Below are positions 14,680 to 34,672 of a DNA stretch of 35,305 nt, piece by piece. The position numbers and the translations under genes were made by a program. Below the pieces are notes generated by a model. That model was not told the DNA's origin and did not search any database. It saw only the letters and a list, made by a program, of their open reading frames with translations. How positions within the stretch are numbered: the stretch's first letter is position 1; every line of letters starts with the position of its first letter. Location: contig CALHRC010000086.1 of NCBI GenBank assembly GCA_938038265.1, forward strand, positions 1-35,305, given 5' to 3'. The DNA comes from an uncultured bacterium (GTDB taxonomy: Bacteria; Spirochaetota; Leptospiria; Turneriellales; Turneriellaceae).

Positions 14680-14862
14680 ATGCTGTTTTGAGGCCGTTTT
14701 GCCAAAGTCATTGCTTAAGAGTTCAGCATAGCTTTTGATTCTCAGCAAAATTCAGAAACGTTTGGCGGCGGCGCTCACCCCCGGAACCCATGCCAGCAAT
14801 AACTTTTTCGAGAATTGCCGCTATACGCCGGGGCTTTTGTTCTTGGAATTCTAAAAACTTCT

Positions 14863-19307: not shown

Positions 19308-19437
19308 AAATCCACACCAAGAAAACCAGCCACCATGTGACATAATGTAAGTTTTTAGTAACTAACAACCCCTTGCGGGGGGTTCTTAGTTACTCCTGTT
19401 CAGGAATTCCTGAACAAAGATGTGGAATTCCCCACCA
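19308..19437. repeat. Tandem direct repeat, copy 1 (130 bp)
   Basis: This unit recurs at 19446-19575 with a single visible difference (T at 19383 versus A at 19521). The copies are separated by eight bases. Each unit contains, in order, a degenerate P2-like start, ATGTGACATAATG, a long hairpin (AGTAACTAA ... TTAGTTACT enclosing CCCC/GGGG, 19357-19394), P1 (19398-19415) and P2 (19419-19436). Confidence 0.95.
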
Positions 19438-19445
19438 CGGTATGG

Positions 19446-19575
19446 AAATCCACACCAAGAAAACCAGCCACCATGTGACATAATGTAAGTTTTTAGTAAC
19501 TAACAACCCCTTGCGGGGGGATCTTAGTTACTCCTGTTCAGGAATTCCTGAACAAAGATGTGGAATTCCCCACCA
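19446..19575. repeat. Tandem direct repeat, copy 2 (130 bp)
   Basis: Second copy, offset 138 bases from the first. Its hairpin is at 19495-19532, P1 at 19536-19553 and P2 (GATGTGGAATTCCCCACC) at 19557-19574. The near identity points to a recent duplication or ongoing homogenisation. Confidence 0.95.
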
Positions 19576-28143: not shown

Positions 28144-28982
28144 AAAATATCCTTTGATGCCATATTAATTTTTTGGATGTCAATGTCACAAGGTATGCTC
28201 AAGTCGTGAGCAAGTTTTATCAATTTCATAGTGTCTATATTGCCTTTAGCCCCTGGCGAAAAAGGGCAGCCGCCGATGCCGCCGGCCGAGCTGTCAAATT
28301 TGCGGTAACCGGCGGCAAGCGCCAGACGGGCTAACTCTTCAGCTCGCTGCCAAGTGTCATGAAAGTGCCACCAGATTTTGTCTTTGTAAGATTTTTTTGC
28401 AAGCCAGCCGAGAAGCTCGCTCATATTCTTTCCATCCCCCCGGCCGGTGGTATCACCCAACGAAATTTCATCTACCAGAGAAAATAATGGTTCAAATTGC
28501 GGTAGATCCTCAATTGGATTTTTACTCCCTTCATAAGCGCAGTCAAACACCGTGGAAATATAAAGACGCAAAAGATTACATCTACCCTGTCGCGCTTGTT
28601 CTGCCATGGAGCCAATCAGGCTGATGGATTCCTTAACGGAACGATTTATGTTTTTTCGATTAAACGTTTCTGAAGTGGCTGTAAAAAATGCAATGGAACT
28701 CACACCAATCTCCAAAGCTCTTAACAATCCTTTTTCGTTAGGAATTAGTAGGCTCAGTGAAGCATCTGGAAATTCTTTTTTCAGAGAAATGAATACCTGG
28801 TCAGAATCTGCCATGGCCGGCACCGCCTGCGGGTTGACCAGTGCCCCCACTTCAATTTTTGTGAGACCAGCTCTTATTAATCGGCGACAAAATTCAATGC
28901 GCTGGTTGACTGTTAAAACTCGACCGAGAGATTGCAGCCCGTCACGCGGAGCTACTTCGCAAATTTGTAGCCTATCGCTCAT
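28140..28982 (-). CDS. liuE: Hydroxymethylglutaryl-CoA lyase
   Basis: This enzyme splits HMG-CoA into acetyl-CoA and acetoacetate, the final step of leucine degradation. With the start at 28982 it has 280 residues. It begins with the typical ICEVAPRDGLQ (R13 and D14 are catalytic), then GALVNPQAVPAMAD, SLGDTTGRG and HFHDTW (metal ligands H206 and H208). The HMG-CoA lyase signature SAGGIGGCPFSPGAKGN contains the catalytic C239. A longer frame starting at 29042 would add 20 residues that overlap the upstream gene by 71 bases and look unlike the family. With the chosen start the overlap is 11 bases. Isopropylmalate synthase and homocitrate synthase are excluded by the GGCP signature. Confidence 0.94.
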   Translation of the reverse strand: MSDRLQICEVAPRDGLQSLGRVLTVNQRIEFCRRLIRAGLTKIEVGALVNPQAVPAMADSDQVFISLKKEFPDASLSLLIPNEKGLLRALEIGVSSIAFFTATSETFNRKNINRSVKESISLIGSMAEQARQGRCNLLRLYISTVFDCAYEGSKNPIEDLPQFEPLFSLVDEISLGDTTGRGDGKNMSELLGWLAKKSYKDKIWWHFHDTWQRAEELARLALAAGYRKFDSSAGGIGGCPFSPGAKGNIDTMKLIKLAHDLSIPCDIDIQKINMASKDIL

Positions 28983-29937
28983 TCTTTTTTTTCTGCCGCA
29001 TAGCGCTGAACACAATTCCCTGCGCATTAATACCGGTGTCAATCCGCAGCATCTGTAATTGTTCTTCTGTCGGATAAATACCGCGCTCAGCCAACTCTCT
29101 CAAAAACAAGGCTTCAAACTGTTCTTCTGCGTAAGTCGTGGCTTTTTCCTGACTTAAATCATGTTCGAGCAAATAGCCGTATATTTTTTCAATTTCATTC
29201 ATCAGCCGGTGAAGCTCGGCAGCACCATAAGAGACATCCCCCCATTCGCCAAAATGAGTTAGCATGGCACGCCGTGGTTTGAGCGAAGTAATCAGATCAT
29301 AAGAACGGTGCGCTTCTATAGGGTCAAAATCCGTCGGTGTCGTAGTGGGATAGATAAAAGGTCGCGAACCTGACTGCAGCAGAGGGTAGGCAATGCCAAA
29401 AGAATCGCCCGTATAGACAGTGCGATCTTGGGTGTCAAAAATGACAAAGTGATGATTGGCATGACCGCGAGTATAGAAAAAACGCAGCTCGCGATCACCT
29501 AATGTAAGCGAAGCGCCATCTTCTGGAGTGATGACTCGTTCAGCCGGTACTCTTTCAATGGCGCCATACAATTTTTCAAAGAGCTCATGTCCGTACACCA
29601 TACGGGCACTTTCTACCAGACGCTGTGGATCAATGACATGGCGAGCTGCCCGTGGGTGGGCAACTACTGTAGCGTTAGGGCAGTGTTGCAGCAGCGCGGC
29701 AGTACCACCCGCGTGATCGAGATGCACATGAGTTATGATAATGTACTTTATTTTTTCAGCAGAAATATTTTTGTCTTTAAGCGCGGTGAGAAGATAAGGC
29801 AGGGCATGGCTGGTATTGGTTTCTATAAAAGCAGCTTCGTTGCCTGCGTTAAGCAAAAAAGCTGCTGCGGTTTTTTCATAGACATAGTGGCAGTCGATGA
29901 CGGTGACGCAGTCTTCGGTTGCGGGTCGGGTTTTCAT
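28972..29937 (-). CDS. Metallo-beta-lactamase-fold hydrolase
   Basis: A 321-residue MBL-fold hydrolase. Metal ligands are seen in THVHLDHAGG (H70, H72, D74, H75), in TRGHANHHFVIFD, in YTGDSFG and in LTHFGEWGD. It lacks the glyoxalase II tail, so it is a different branch from the enzyme at 8509-9291. The ATG at 29937 is preferred to an in-frame TTG at 29946. It is the first gene of an operon with HMG-CoA lyase (11-base overlap) and a crotonase, which suggests hydrolysis of an acyl-CoA or lactone in branched-chain metabolism; that is inference from context. A P2-like palindrome (29980-29997) lies upstream. Confidence 0.82.
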   Translation of the reverse strand: MKTRPATEDCVTVIDCHYVYEKTAAAFLLNAGNEAAFIETNTSHALPYLLTALKDKNISAEKIKYIIITHVHLDHAGGTAALLQHCPNATVVAHPRAARHVIDPQRLVESARMVYGHELFEKLYGAIERVPAERVITPEDGASLTLGDRELRFFYTRGHANHHFVIFDTQDRTVYTGDSFGIAYPLLQSGSRPFIYPTTTPTDFDPIEAHRSYDLITSLKPRRAMLTHFGEWGDVSYGAAELHRLMNEIEKIYGYLLEHDLSQEKATTYAEEQFEALFLRELAERGIYPTEEQLQMLRIDTGINAQGIVFSAMRQKKKNER

Positions 29938-29979
29938 AGGCAACAATCGCTCTTGGCAATAGGTAGAAAATGTTTTTTT

Positions 29980-29997
29980 GATGTGGAATATCCATTC
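29980..29997. repeat. Degenerate P2 palindrome
   Basis: GATGTGGAATATCCATTC keeps the left arm and part of the core. It stands 42 bases upstream of the MBL-hydrolase start. Confidence 0.6.
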
Positions 29998-30320
29998 CGA
30001 GGAGATATGTTACACTTAGGATTGCTAAAATAAGTGTAAAGCCTCTTAAATGGTTTTAAGTAAAAAAACTAACTTGAAGGGATGGGCAAAGGTACAATTA
30101 GTTGGGATATTCACCAGCGCTTAGAGCGAAATTTTCGCTACTTCAAAGGCGGGCCAGGGTCATGACACTGCATGTGTGTGACTCCAAATCGGGCGATGGT
30201 ATAATGTCCGCCGTTCTCACTGGTTGTTTAACGGCTTGGCACCCCATGAAGAGTTCTATGGACTTAAGATTGGCTAAAATCGCTTAGGGTGTATGTTTTC
30301 TTCCCGGAGGCGACATTTTT

Positions 30321-30338
30321 GATGTGGAATTCCACATC
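30321..30338. repeat. P2 palindrome, perfect
   Basis: GATGTGGAATTCCACATC, an exact 18-base palindrome. The GC-rich structured unit begins 14 bases later, the same spacing as at 34279. Confidence 0.9.
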
Positions 30339-30352
30339 AATGGCAGTAAAAT

Positions 30353-30490
30353 GGGGGCCTCCCGGGCGCCCCCCCTCGCTACGTCCTGGCTTGTCTCTAA
30401 CATGACAACCTCAGCAAGCATGGCCTTGTAAGACCACCGCTTCTTACTATCGCGCGAAGCTTGACCGCTGCTGCCAGTCCGCTATCCCCC
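30353..30490. other. Structured GC-rich intergenic element, copy A
   Basis: This unit aligns with 34311-34447 through CCCTCGCT, GGCTTGTC, GACAACC, GCATGGCC and CTAYCCCCC and has the same overall length. Possible stems are: I, GGGGGC (30353-30358) with GCCCCC (30368-30373); II, CTGGC (30386-30390) with GCCAG (30473-30477); III, TTGTC (30391-30395) with GACAA (30404-30408); IV, CAAGC (30415-30419) with GCTTG (30459-30463), extended by CAG/CTG; V, TGGCCTT (30421-30427) with AAGACCA (30430-30436), one mismatch. The strand that folds is unknown. Confidence 0.55.
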
Positions 30491-30632
30491 CAGAAACATC
30501 CTTCACAAAATTTTTTATCAATTTTAAAATTTTTTTATTCTAAAATGCAAATTTTGACCCCACGACAGGGTATATAACAGTAAGGGGCAATTTCTCTCAT
30601 GTCCCCTAAGTATATTGAATACTGGAGGATCT

Positions 30633-31187
30633 ATGAAATACAAAGGTGATAGTAATCCATATAATGTAGATGCCGTATGGGAAGTTCGGCTACGGCCTGA
30701 AATTATTGAAGATATTAGAAAGGCCGCAAGTCATTACAAGACAACCATGTCGTGGATCGTGCGTTGGTGTACGTTTCGGCTTTTTCTTAGAAAGAAAATG
30801 AGTTTGGATAAACTGCATAACATAGCGCAGGAACTGCGGGAAAGAAATCAACCCAAGCCCATGTCTGCCGGAGAATTACACCGACTGCGGGTTTGCCTTT
30901 ATGGAGGAGATGAGAGAATTTTTCTTGAATTGAAATATCGCTTTGGGTTGACAACAACTATGTTGGTCAGAATAGCTTTGCAACTTTATCTCAAATACTT
31001 ATTAGACAAAGCTGAATCCTGGAGAAATGTTTTCTTCTACGGTTTAAAATTTTTTTCTCAAACAAAAGCGCTATACTCTCGCCGTGTTATAGTGCCTCAG
31101 GTGGACTTTCATATTCACAAGTTTTTTCATTATTCAGACTATTGGGATATCCCGCCAGGAAAAATGCCTAATTTTATAAGGGTTTAG
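30633..31187 (+). CDS. Hypothetical protein with two ribbon-helix-helix-like segments
   Basis: A 184-residue protein that I cannot assign. Two segments look like ribbon-helix-helix DNA-binding units: residues 14-52 (strand VWEVRLRPE, then two helices separated by KTTMS) and residues 83-121 (strand HRLRVCLYG, then helices separated by GLTTT). A protein with both would form an RHH pair within one chain. Leptospira DUF1564 proteins have a comparable build, but I cannot verify homology. The last 55 residues are aromatic and basic. I chose the ATG at 30633 because GGAGG lies five bases before it; a TTG at 30615 is in frame but lacks such a site. A perfect P2 palindrome lies on each side (30321 and 31207). 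Confidence 0.7.
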   Translation: MKYKGDSNPYNVDAVWEVRLRPEIIEDIRKAASHYKTTMSWIVRWCTFRLFLRKKMSLDKLHNIAQELRERNQPKPMSAGELHRLRVCLYGGDERIFLELKYRFGLTTTMLVRIALQLYLKYLLDKAESWRNVFFYGLKFFSQTKALYSRRVIVPQVDFHIHKFFHYSDYWDIPPGKMPNFIRV

Positions 31188-31202
31188 TGGCTTTCAGAAA
31201 GA

Positions 31203-31228
31203 TTTTGATGTGGAATTCCACATCAAAA
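31203..31228. repeat. P2 palindrome extended to 26 perfect bases
   Basis: The 18-base P2 (31207-31224) is flanked by TTTT and AAAA, making a 26-base exact palindrome between two convergent genes. The T-run precedes and the A-run follows the stem on both strands, the reverse of an intrinsic terminator. Confidence 0.9.
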
Positions 31229-31259: not shown

Positions 31260-34175
31260 TTAATAGCCAGGGCGAGTAAGTACAGTCTCACAACGCCAAG
31301 AATTCTTCCCCTGCTGTAAATCATTGACCCGCATAACCCCCTTACAGCTATTGGAGCAATTATAAGTGGCGTTTTCAGAGGCAAGACTATCGGCGGCAAC
31401 ACAAATCCCCTCTAATTGCAAATCACGGTCATTGAGACCAGCAACTGGCAATTGCGATAGCGGCCAAAAATTTTGTAAGTTATAATAGACTTCCCGCAGA
31501 GCGCCTTCGGCAAAACCACCTGTCCAGCTGCCATCGCGGTTGGTGTAATAAAGTACATCCTGCACCCCATAGTTTGGTAACGGGCAGCCTGCACTATTCT
31601 CTGTATTGGTGCCGCAGTAGGTAAGTATAATAACCGCATCTGTTGTGGTCAGTGTGGGAGCCATAGAGTTAATATGGTACGGCGAACCATTGCGGGTTGC
31701 TGGCGTACAGCTTGGACTGCTAAATCCCGTATCACAGCCATTGGCATTATAGGTATCTTCGTTTTTTAATAAATTTGCTTCGCTGCGCCGGGTTGAGACT
31801 ACCAAAATATCATTGGCAGCGACAGACAGCTCACCAAATTCATGCACTAAGTCCATTCCCTGGTAGTTGTAGTAAAAAACACGCAGCCCCCGTACTGTGC
31901 CAGCTGAAGTAGCACGGATTTCAATCCAATTGGTGTCATTGTTGACACGATTTAATAACACCTGGGCTCGACTACTGTTATAACCATTAAAGTATAGCGC
32001 ATCGGTATTGGCAACTACTGACCAAAAATCTTGGCAGCTGGAGGTGGGGGCAGCAGAGAACAAAGTATCGCTGCCATTAAAATTACCGCTGGTAGCCGTG
32101 AGACGCAATACCCCCAAAGAGGTTTGTGTGAGGTTAAACGCAGTAGGGACACTACCGCTGCCAGAAATTTTATTTAATAAAATGTCGAATGATGGATTCA
32201 TACAGTTAGTCATGTTGCTATTAAAATTTAAGATAAGTTCTGTGGGGGATGTCAAATAAGCCGAGAGCAACCGGGGCTGGGCTGCTGAAGAATAACCAGT
32301 ACCCGCCGAGGCATAGGTTTCACCAGCAGCCGCGTTACTACAGGCGTCAAAAGTTTGGCTCCAGTGAGAGCAAGTATATTTAGTAAAAGCAGTAAACCAA
32401 GCAGCTTTTAAATAACCAGGTAGCATGTTGATGTTGGTATGGCTGCGCCGCTCCATACTGCGGGAGATTTTGGCAATACTATCCATGGCGCCTGCCGGCG
32501 CGTTAAAACCATCCCCTGCTTCATCAACTAAATTCATGGCTTTGTCAAAGAGACGCACCTTAAATTGGGCATTACTTAACCTAAAATTTTTGACCCCTGA
32601 AATTCTAAAGTGCTCTAAACCAGTTACCCGGGTATAGAGGGCGGCGCCATCTTCATTATAGACAATGTCCTCATCGGGGGTAGGAGGGGCAAAAGCCGAA
32701 TTACCATCCGCATAAAAAACCCGGTACATGCCGGGGCAGATTACGTTATCTACCGTTTCAGAAAAATTTTGGTAGCCGGGATAACCTGAGCAAGTTTGTT
32801 TGTTTTCATAATACCAGTTGTGTCTGTCGGGTATGGGATAGATATTGCGCCACTCATTGGGCCCCCACTGTATAGCCCAGTGAGAGAGATCCACCGGTTG
32901 CGAACCTTTATTATAAATTTCAATGAAATCATCGCTTTGTTTTAGGTTGCTTGTGGTGCTTGAACCAGCCCAGTTAATTTCGCTAATTACAATGTCACCA
33001 GGGTTGGCAATATGACCGCGGCGACCCACGCGTAGTGCTAAATCATTCGATATCCCCCAGGCTTGTTTAAATTGTTCATAAATTGTGTTAGCAATTTTGG
33101 GATTATGGATTACAATCATATTTTCGTCGTTATTATTGATGGCGTTATTGGACCAATTAAACGAGCCGGTCGCCATTTTAGCATTGGGTGTGCCGGCATC
33201 AATGATAAGGGTTTTGCAGTGCATTTTACCGCCATGGGCGGGGTTGCCGCGAATCTTGGTGTTTTCGTTGCCATCCCACCGGGGGAAGGGGCCGGTGGGG
33301 TGGAGGGAGCCATCGTTATTAAACGCACTCGTATAGATACGAGGCGCTTCTTCAGAGACGCCGACAACAAAAGTATTGTCATGGATGCCATAGACGGGAA
33401 TATTCCTTTGGCGGGCTGCGTGAATCATGGCGCTGGCTAACTCATCGTGAGTGTGCGCAAAGATCATATAGTGCACGGAATGCTGCGCACTGTTTACGAG
33501 CTCAATTAAGCGATCCATGGCATCTTGGCCATCATAGGGTGAAAAATAAACCTCTATTTGGTGGTTATTGACTGTAAAAGTGCGGTTGATTGCTCGGGGA
33601 CGTTTTTTACTGGCAAAAAGCCCGCTGTACATCTGCATAAATTCATTGCGGTAATGGTTGGCAATTTCTGGGCTTTCAATAATATACCAGTTATTGTTAT
33701 TGCGATCCATATCGGTATCGGAAAGGTTGCCGGTACCGGTAAAGACCAGCCGCCCATCCACAACGGCAAATTTATTGTGTTGGATGCCGCTGGCATTGCC
33801 CAGTGACATGTCGATATTGTATTGTTGCATTTGCTGGTAGCCGTGGGTATAAAACTCATCGATATCCCCCACTACCTTAACTTCAATATTGCGCTCCCGT
33901 GCGCGCAGTACAGCATCGATGATGGATTGCTTATTGAAATTATAAACTGCCAATAAAACAGATTGTTCGGCTTCATCGATGATTTTTACCAATTCTAAAT
34001 CAATGAATTTGTTAACCATGGTTTCGGGGTCGCGCCCGGGATCATTGAAATACACTGAAAAGCGAGCTGTGCCATCCCCGAACCCGGGATCTTTAATACT
34101 TGTGACATTGGTACAAGCCGCTGTTAGCAGTAGTACTGTGGTCAATAGGGGGCATGTAAGTCTCTGGAGACTCAT
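31260..34175 (-). CDS. Large lipoprotein with two phospholipase D motifs and lamin-tail-like domains
   Basis: A 971-residue lipoprotein. The signal peptide ends in the lipobox LTAAC, with C21 as the lipidated residue. The N-terminal half is a phospholipase D-superfamily domain with both HxKxxxxD motifs: H133/K135/D140 (HNKFAVVD, followed by GTGNLSD) and H319/K321/D326 (HCKTLIID, followed by GSFNWSNNA). A lamin-tail-like domain follows from about residue 394 (GDIVISEINWAG, DDFIEIYNKGSQPVDLSHWAIQ). A middle Ig-like part has LTSPTELILNFNSNM. A second lamin-tail-like stretch reads NDTNWIEIRATSAGTVRGLRVFYYN. The last 150 residues carry several cysteines. It may be a surface-exposed nuclease or phospholipase; whether it faces the periplasm or the outside is unknown. 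It is monocistronic and ends 72 bases from the RHH-like gene. Confidence 0.85.
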   Translation of the reverse strand: MSLQRLTCPLLTTVLLLTAACTNVTSIKDPGFGDGTARFSVYFNDPGRDPETMVNKFIDLELVKIIDEAEQSVLLAVYNFNKQSIIDAVLRARERNIEVKVVGDIDEFYTHGYQQMQQYNIDMSLGNASGIQHNKFAVVDGRLVFTGTGNLSDTDMDRNNNNWYIIESPEIANHYRNEFMQMYSGLFASKKRPRAINRTFTVNNHQIEVYFSPYDGQDAMDRLIELVNSAQHSVHYMIFAHTHDELASAMIHAARQRNIPVYGIHDNTFVVGVSEEAPRIYTSAFNNDGSLHPTGPFPRWDGNENTKIRGNPAHGGKMHCKTLIIDAGTPNAKMATGSFNWSNNAINNNDENMIVIHNPKIANTIYEQFKQAWGISNDLALRVGRRGHIANPGDIVISEINWAGSSTTSNLKQSDDFIEIYNKGSQPVDLSHWAIQWGPNEWRNIYPIPDRHNWYYENKQTCSGYPGYQNFSETVDNVICPGMYRVFYADGNSAFAPPTPDEDIVYNEDGAALYTRVTGLEHFRISGVKNFRLSNAQFKVRLFDKAMNLVDEAGDGFNAPAGAMDSIAKISRSMERRSHTNINMLPGYLKAAWFTAFTKYTCSHWSQTFDACSNAAAGETYASAGTGYSSAAQPRLLSAYLTSPTELILNFNSNMTNCMNPSFDILLNKISGSGSVPTAFNLTQTSLGVLRLTATSGNFNGSDTLFSAAPTSSCQDFWSVVANTDALYFNGYNSSRAQVLLNRVNNDTNWIEIRATSAGTVRGLRVFYYNYQGMDLVHEFGELSVAANDILVVSTRRSEANLLKNEDTYNANGCDTGFSSPSCTPATRNGSPYHINSMAPTLTTTDAVIILTYCGTNTENSAGCPLPNYGVQDVLYYTNRDGSWTGGFAEGALREVYYNLQNFWPLSQLPVAGLNDRDLQLEGICVAADSLASENATYNCSNSCKGVMRVNDLQQGKNSWRCETVLTRPGY

Positions 34176-34256
34176 CTTGAGGCTTTATTATAGTACGAAT
34201 TGCCCCAGTCAAGAGAAAGTTGTTTTATTTTGTCTGCCAGCAGCCAAGGAATCCTT

Positions 34257-34296
34257 AGTTCAGGAATTCCTGAACTATGATGTGGAATTCCACATC
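34257..34296. repeat. P1-P2 palindrome pair, both perfect
   Basis: AGTTCAGGAATTCCTGAACT (34257-34276) and GATGTGGAATTCCACATC (34279-34296) are both exact palindromes and are separated by only two bases. This is the cleanest example of the pair in the window. Confidence 0.92.
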
Positions 34297-34310
34297 AAAA
34301 AGTAAAAAGG

Positions 34311-34648: not shown

Positions 34649-34672
34649 CTTGATGTGGAATTCCACATCAAG
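34649..34672. repeat. P2 palindrome extended to 24 perfect bases
   Basis: GATGTGGAATTCCACATC (34652-34669) with CTT and AAG on its sides. Confidence 0.9.

Follow-up and report, generated by a model that had tools for sequence, protein, structure and literature searches.

Ribbon-helix-helix (RHH) proteins are DNA binders, and in Arc, CopG and the antitoxins a dimeric RHH protein binds palindromes at its own promoter. DUF1564, a family of unknown function, is highly multiplied in Leptospira. An 18-bp operator is given for the MazE6 antitoxin, with the accessible part of that source not naming the protein as RHH (PMC9477884), and in the available text of a further paper RHH proteins appear in toxin-antitoxin lists only (PMC3493377). 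In the available portion of its source, F TraY is described as monomeric, with one chain folded like an RHH dimer and the molecules touching along the DNA (PMC12117103). The REP/RAYT systems, as portrayed in portions of three papers, comprise a family of genes that have their own type of short palindrome on either side, with many intergenic copies (PMC2817692, PMC3116915, PMC3733652).

The gene considered here lies in a window of 35,305 nucleotides, the whole stretch of DNA that was analysed, which is contig C86 of an assembly (2.61 Mb, 234 contigs, 83% complete) of an uncultured bacterium of the Turneriellaceae. It probably belongs to a family of autoregulated tandem-RHH transcription factors that recognise their own palindromes, exert local control and have diverged together with their operators. 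Fold prediction, family, site positions, co-segregation on the protein tree, DNA conservation within the genes and local clustering were all computed. Like F TraY, which we take to be its best structural match (Z 10.8), the protein is predicted to carry two strand-helix-helix units in one polypeptide. It differs in sharing about 12% identity with F TraY, in being chromosomal, in having many paralogues and in about 60 additional residues at the C terminus; the palindromes of its family are genome-wide, whereas for F TraY the site is oriT. Compared with Arc, CopG and the antitoxins, the family has two predicted units per chain, putative operators inside coding sequence and paralogue-specific local territories. 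Unlike antitoxins, the window gene has no toxin partner among neighbouring ORFs of at least 80 amino acids, and PADLOC gave no match for the window protein. No description of the tandem-RHH family was found in the literature searched, a body outside which most subscription journals fall.

Predicted fold and family membership

The window gene encodes 184 amino acids, from an ATG at 30633 to a stop codon at 31185-31187 (30633..31187, plus strand); a TTG at 30615 would yield 190 amino acids. A short out-of-frame ORF beginning ATGTCCCCTAAG overlies the gene start at 30599-30649 and may be chance. An AlphaFold2 model built from a 28-sequence alignment (pTM 0.67, mean pLDDT 72, residues 140-184 mostly at low confidence) places a first RHH unit at residues 12-52 (30666..30788, plus strand), with a strand at 12-20 and helices at 22-35 and 39-52, and a second at residues 83-124 (30879..31004, plus strand), with a strand at 83-90 and helices at 93-104 and 108-124. 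The first eleven Foldseek matches are F-relaxosome chains, which we take to be TraY, with a best E of 0.007 and none below 0.001. VIA-align likewise ranks an F-relaxosome chain best (Z 10.8, 102 aligned residues, 2.5 A); the next matches are a permuted single-chain Arc (7.2), a CRISPR-related protein (6.6), AvtR (6.4) and DndE (6.3), and Z values below 8 may reflect just a common arrangement. At the sequence level, Pfam RHH_1 (E up to 1) is matched by 13 of 35 family members, with a best E of 3.4e-6, and the family profile finds weak RHH matches among PDB sequences (E 0.34 and 0.98); a Pfam search of the window protein alone gave no RHH match. The tandem RHH architecture proposed in the earlier note is thus supported by the model, the structure matches and RHH_1 in 13 of the 35 members, the window protein itself being without such a match. 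The predicted strand-helix-helix units have the fold of the RHH superfamily, and their predicted arrangement, in tandem within one chain, is that of TraY-like proteins.

Positions invariant in the 35 members include S40, R44, C46, C88, Y90, G91, D93 and R113. Cysteines 46 and 88, one in each RHH unit, could have a redox or metal role. Position 86, in the second strand, is R in L001-L003, Y in seven P1-side copies, F in L015 and N, M or I in L004-L006, and on this pattern is a candidate specificity residue.

The genome of the window holds 16 family matches, 15 of them full-length or nearly so and one a fragment (L016), which was left out of gene counts. Members occur in 13 of the 41 genomes searched, this one included, with up to 18 in one genome; metagenome-assembled genomes that carry them include Leptospiraceae SKYG28 and HKST-UBA14 and Spirochaetia Bin24 and Bin25. 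Searches of viral contigs, plasmids and phages found no relatives. No transposase family, including the tyrosine (HUH/Y1) transposase domain, is among the best 25 of 26 Pfam families for the 35 members (E up to 1).

A likeness to DUF1564, suspected in the earlier note, did not hold. PF07600 is absent from the best 25 of 26 Pfam families for all 35 members, with 0 in the genome of the window, and hhalign of the family against DUF1564 (7 sequences on the DUF1564 side) returned a probability of 1.5% (E 0.034, 28 columns); membership was rejected on both grounds. PF07600 occurs in 18 of 48 genomes of the class, all of them f5 or f6 and 0 of the 18 from f1-f4, whereas the tandem-RHH family was found only in f1, f3 and f4. 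DUF1564 members read, from their sequences, as two RHH-like units, and DUF1564 is possibly a parallel family rather than part of the tandem-RHH family. Both are large paralogous families of the same class, and two DUF1564 loci share the layout of an upstream and an in-gene palindrome. At these loci, L140 and L160, GTAGGANNTCCTAC lies upstream and in the gene, the in-gene copy read as VGTPT. The in-gene form there is GTAGGAACTCCTAC, again VGTPT, with a copy 74-136 bp upstream, so that a different family shows the same layout. The two loci were picked because palindromes had been noticed at DUF1564 genes. They are 2 of 38 loci examined, of about 270 matches, and the remaining 36, drawn from the list of PF07600 matches, have no palindrome of the L140/L160 form. 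A class-wide DUF1564 palindrome, TGTNGGANNTCCNACA, was also tried and rejected: among the matches listed it has mostly few copies, mixed with unrelated TGTCGG repeats, and only those in G040 and G018 looked cognate. No paper on DUF1564 was found in the literature searched.

Palindromes at and within the family genes

The palindrome P2, TTGATGTGGAATTCCACATCAA, occurs as exact copies on either side of the window gene. The first, at 30319-30340, lies 292 bp before the ATG and is the proposed operator; the second, at 31205-31226, is part of a perfect palindrome that stretches to 31203-31228, in a convergent gap and 15 bp past the stop codon. The bracketing by perfect P2 copies described in the earlier note is confirmed, its starts of 30321 and 31207 marking where the 18-bp core begins. 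Within 3 mismatches P2 has 42 sites genome-wide and the reversed pattern 0, an occurrence far beyond chance. The large neighbouring ORFs, 28972-29946 and 31260-34175, are both on the minus strand. A terminator scan placed one minus-strand terminator-like site over the downstream P2, with a total of 2 against 1.6 in shuffled sequence. A half-decayed P2, TTGATGTGGAATATCCATTCC, stands at 29978-29998, some 30-50 bp ahead of where the divergent ORF 28972-29946 starts, and might be a further target.

With each locus turned to the gene strand, a palindrome with the GGAATTCC core lies upstream in 13 of the 14 copies of this genome that have upstream DNA (L012, with 15 bp of it, was left out). The one copy lacking it within the 450 bp scanned is L015. 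The earlier note had counted an absence of flanking palindromes at the paralogues against its reading, and the reverse was found. Four upstream types can be told apart: GATG[T/G]GG (L001-L003), GCTATGG (L004, L006), GATATGG (L005) and GTTCAGG (L007-L011, L013, L014). On a protein tree of 29 sequences, built from the first 140 residues and with 13 rows carrying an operator label, the type changes 3 times, the lowest number attainable, whereas shuffles average 5.7 and 0 of 200 are as low; because upstream DNA duplicates along with the gene, this match alone is no proof of recognition. Among the family genes of G005, the closest copies found outside this genome, most have no clear upstream palindrome.

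Given upstream palindromes in 13 of 14 family genes, the unusual side of the bracketing is the downstream copy. Among the paralogues of this genome, some with little downstream DNA, a downstream palindrome (arms of at least 8, within 700 bp) was found only at L001, 15 bp past the stop, and L002, about 130-150 bp past it. A mobile cassette, which the earlier note had offered as another possibility, was rejected as the main reading because the paralogues are not bracketed by matching outer palindromes; nor is it favoured by the Pfam families listed, with no transposase among them, or by the lack of relatives in the viruses, plasmids and phages searched.

A family promoter signature, TGCAAATTTT-N12-GGGTATATA, lies at 30546-30576 on the plus strand. 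It joins a [TC]GCAAA box to G[G/T]GTATATA, exactly 12 bp apart as counted from the 10-bp box, in 14 of the 14 copies of this genome with that DNA; the second element begins GTG in L014 and GGG in the remaining copies. This constancy points to shared control, perhaps through an alternative sigma factor for L001-L015. The ATG stands 5 bp past the signature in 8 of 15 genes, and the family promoters may possibly yield leaderless mRNAs. Related promoter-like sequences, judged by eye, precede family genes in other genera. From the spacing of the repeated module described below, P2 would lie about 42 bp before the presumed start, a position that fits repression or activation alike.

Palindromes also occur in frame within many of the genes, where they are translated as AMEFHS, VQEFLN, DMEFHI or DVEFHI. 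A gene of matching type holds the same or a closely similar peptide, the loosest case being L006 (VMEFHN against AMEFHS). Over 13 genes the in-gene sequences match their upstream counterparts at 201 of 234 positions, against 168.8 when shuffled and with 0 of 20,000 shuffles as high, in a test that takes no account of relatedness among the 13 genes. Conservation at third codon positions indicates selection at the DNA level. In the P1 clade (8 genes) the in-gene copy is the top six-codon window, at 0.89 against a mean of 0.41 (rank 1 of 155), and it also ranks first of 158 in the 12 genes of Bin24/25 (0.84 against 0.50); in the 11 genes of genus g5 it ranks second of 162, behind the first six codons (0.71 against 0.36). 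The Bin24/25 and g5 statistics were taken without L104, L108 and L110, which contain stops, and the broken L126, and the g5 set also without L024 and L036. The in-gene motif is placed around residue 155 in the P1 clade and Bin24/25 and around 130 in g5; in several HKST-UBA14 copies and in G014, there as a diverged AMKIHS seen in the peptide only, it is found around 62-63. L001-L003, the window gene and its two closest paralogues, keep the peptide VDFH over a decayed DNA palindrome (rank 58 of 160); in the window gene the decayed copy lies at 31098-31115 on the plus strand, with codons for QVDFHI, to be compared with DVEFHI, which is P2 translated. L001 and L002, with decayed in-gene copies, have a palindrome downstream of the gene instead.

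Genome-wide sites and local territories

The core pattern GGAATTCC has 674 sites in the genome of the window, or 258 per Mb against about 8-64 per Mb in 40 relatives. The reversed pattern, CCTTAAGG, has 20 copies in the same genome and 0 to 58 across 41 genomes, making it a poor control, so that the comparison of 674 with 20 overstates the excess. Arm length is the better measure, and 48 of the 84 sites in a 290-kb sample have arms of 7 perfect pairs or longer. The second palindrome, P1 (GTTCAGGAATTCCTGAAC), has 256 sites here with at most one mismatch, and no more than 6 in each of 40 relatives. In other genera the common form is GCTATGGNNNNCCATAGC, which outnumbers its reversed control by over 15 in 10 of the 13 genomes with family members, the exceptions being G011, G014 and G015, and in 0 of the 28 without. 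The P1 and P2-like sites are more numerous and more widely distributed than a purely local regulon would allow. At L066, L070 and L076 the contig ends are arrays of palindromic modules; because contigs end in such arrays, copy numbers from the draft genome are probably underestimates.

With ORFs taken from a simple longest-ORF script, 71 of the 84 sites in the sample fall outside ORFs, edges included, and gaps with sites are 14 of 19 when divergent (at least 200 bp), 5 of 15 when codirectional and 1 of 4 when convergent. Among the 19 pairs of neighbours no more than 60 bp apart, the spacing is 19-22 bp in 14, 40-41 bp in 4 and 34 bp in one, mostly two or four helix turns. Such side-by-side sites, about 20 bp apart, suggest cooperative binding of neighbouring molecules. 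One pair lies in the window, where P1 at 34256-34276 is followed about two helix turns away by a P2-type site at 34277-34298 (GATGTGG in both halves, centre 21 bp from the P1 site), upstream of the minus-strand gene that begins at 34175. Many sites form part of a repeated promoter-like module, in which P2 is followed about 28 bp on by a GACATAAT-like box, a AGTAACTAA hairpin and P1; 9 of the 27 pairs of site and box are spaced by 27-29 bp. The module (GACATAAT, AGTAACTAA hairpin, P1, P2) stands at 19308-19575 as two tandem copies of 130 bp, and TTTTAGTWAC has 34 matches on both strands of the 290 kb sampled.

The subtypes occupy local territories. A search of the assembly that allowed up to 3 mismatches over 22 bp found four copies of GATGTGGAATTCCACATC, the subtype of the window gene, and all of them lie in the window contig, the fourth being an exact site at 34650-34671. 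The whole assembly has 2 exact GATATGG palindromes, both on the contig of L005, and 10 exact GCTATGG palindromes, 4 of them on that of L004; less the genes' own sites, the cognate-contig counts are 2 of 2 for GATGTGG, 1 of 1 for GATATGG and 3 of 8 for GCTATGG. Half-sites behave alike: with own sites excluded by hand, several neighbourhood contigs covered in part and 20 other contigs as background, those of the local type number 8 of 36 at L001 against 1 of 128, 6 of 10 at L004 against 3 of 128, 3 of 12 at L005 against 0 of 128, and 5 of 8 at L002 and 7 of 22 at L003, each against 16 of 128. The enrichment p-values are rough, since half-sites within one site or within duplicated modules are not independent. 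Around L006 its own type is not significantly enriched (1 of 24 against 3 of 128); L006 is thus the exception as to territory, as L015 is as to upstream palindromes. The pattern recurs at one locus of another genus: in G003, 24 sites were found in 12 stretches around family genes, with half-sites that start ACTA making up 12 of 12 within 5 kb of one gene that has ACTACGGAATTCCGTAGT upstream and 0 of 36 elsewhere. At 14701 and 16127 of L183, near L005, are two GATATGG-type sites with flanks that look coding rather than promoter-like.

Recognition of P2 by the protein, as proposed in the earlier note, gains indirect support from a subtype that follows the paralogue, from the conservation of in-gene DNA in other clades and from the local, private subtype, all of which would be consistent with binding. 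The same observations bear on other readings. Of these the one that survives best, though we think it unlikely, is that the palindromes are REP-like miniature mobile repeats and the tandem-RHH proteins accessory or domesticated mobility proteins, with local spread giving rise to the clustering. It would accommodate hundreds of copies that are mostly intergenic (71 of 84 sampled), their composite and partly tandem modules, the concentration of private subtypes around family genes and the differing placement of in-gene copies across lineages; as in REP/RAYT, moreover, the gene is flanked by its own palindrome type, upstream in 13 of 14 copies and downstream at L001 and L002 only. RAYTs, however, are tyrosine transposases, whereas the tandem-RHH protein has a predicted RHH fold, its Pfam families listed include no transposase, and its sites prefer divergent promoter gaps. 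The flanks of local copies are also mostly unrelated, 24 of 27 pairs being at or below the 95% random level and 3 of 27 above it, so that the local copies are not long duplicated tracts, and no matches were found in the viruses, plasmids and phages searched.

Less probable still is that the family consists of nucleoid-organising or insulating proteins, which would mark promoter regions genome-wide rather than act as classical regulators. The 674 GGAATTCC sites, the regular 20-bp phasing of close pairs and the presence of sites in most of the long divergent gaps sampled are in its favour, but the paralogue-specific variants, concentrated locally, and the conserved promoter signature point to specific control. 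That the palindromes are RNA hairpins of leaders or of mRNA stability, with the protein unrelated or RNA-binding, is very improbable: perfect palindromes can fold as hairpins, and in the promoter module P1 is often found on the downstream side of the presumed -10 box, but perfect palindromes of 18-26 bp, 20-bp helix phasing and covariation with protein clades better fit dimeric DNA recognition, and RHH proteins are established DNA binders.

Proposed mechanism and its implications

An autoregulated family of tandem-RHH transcription factors is therefore the reading preferred here, and from the computed features we infer binding, repression or activation, autoregulation and cooperativity. As in F TraY, a single chain would supply the two halves of an RHH dimer, and each member would recognise its own variant of the palindrome, built on the GGAATTCC core in this genome and represented for the window gene by GATGTGG-AATT-CCACATC. 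By binding the palindrome upstream of its own promoter, together with a second copy in or just past the gene, the protein would control its own transcription, and the same variant would be bound at promoters within a few kilobases. Following gene duplication, protein and sites would diverge jointly, giving private operator variants with local territories, while in this genome two variants, P1 and P2-like, now stand at hundreds of sites, most of them intergenic and often side by side about 20 bp apart.

A broader proposal, which we hold tentatively and as less likely than its local counterpart, is that this system is class-wide. The operator inside a tandem-RHH gene would also be a translated peptide, the specificities of protein and DNA would drift together and each new copy would found a territory, with DUF1564 as a second instance, either independent or very distant.

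If true, the family would be a natural record of how the specificity of a transcription factor diverges, with some fifteen paralogues, paralogue-specific palindromes and genome-wide lists of targets. It would permit a direct test of why regulators adjoin their targets, and a role would be suggested for the highly multiplied DUF1564 family. Together, these observations suggest a family of gene switches, little known so far, whose territories are local.
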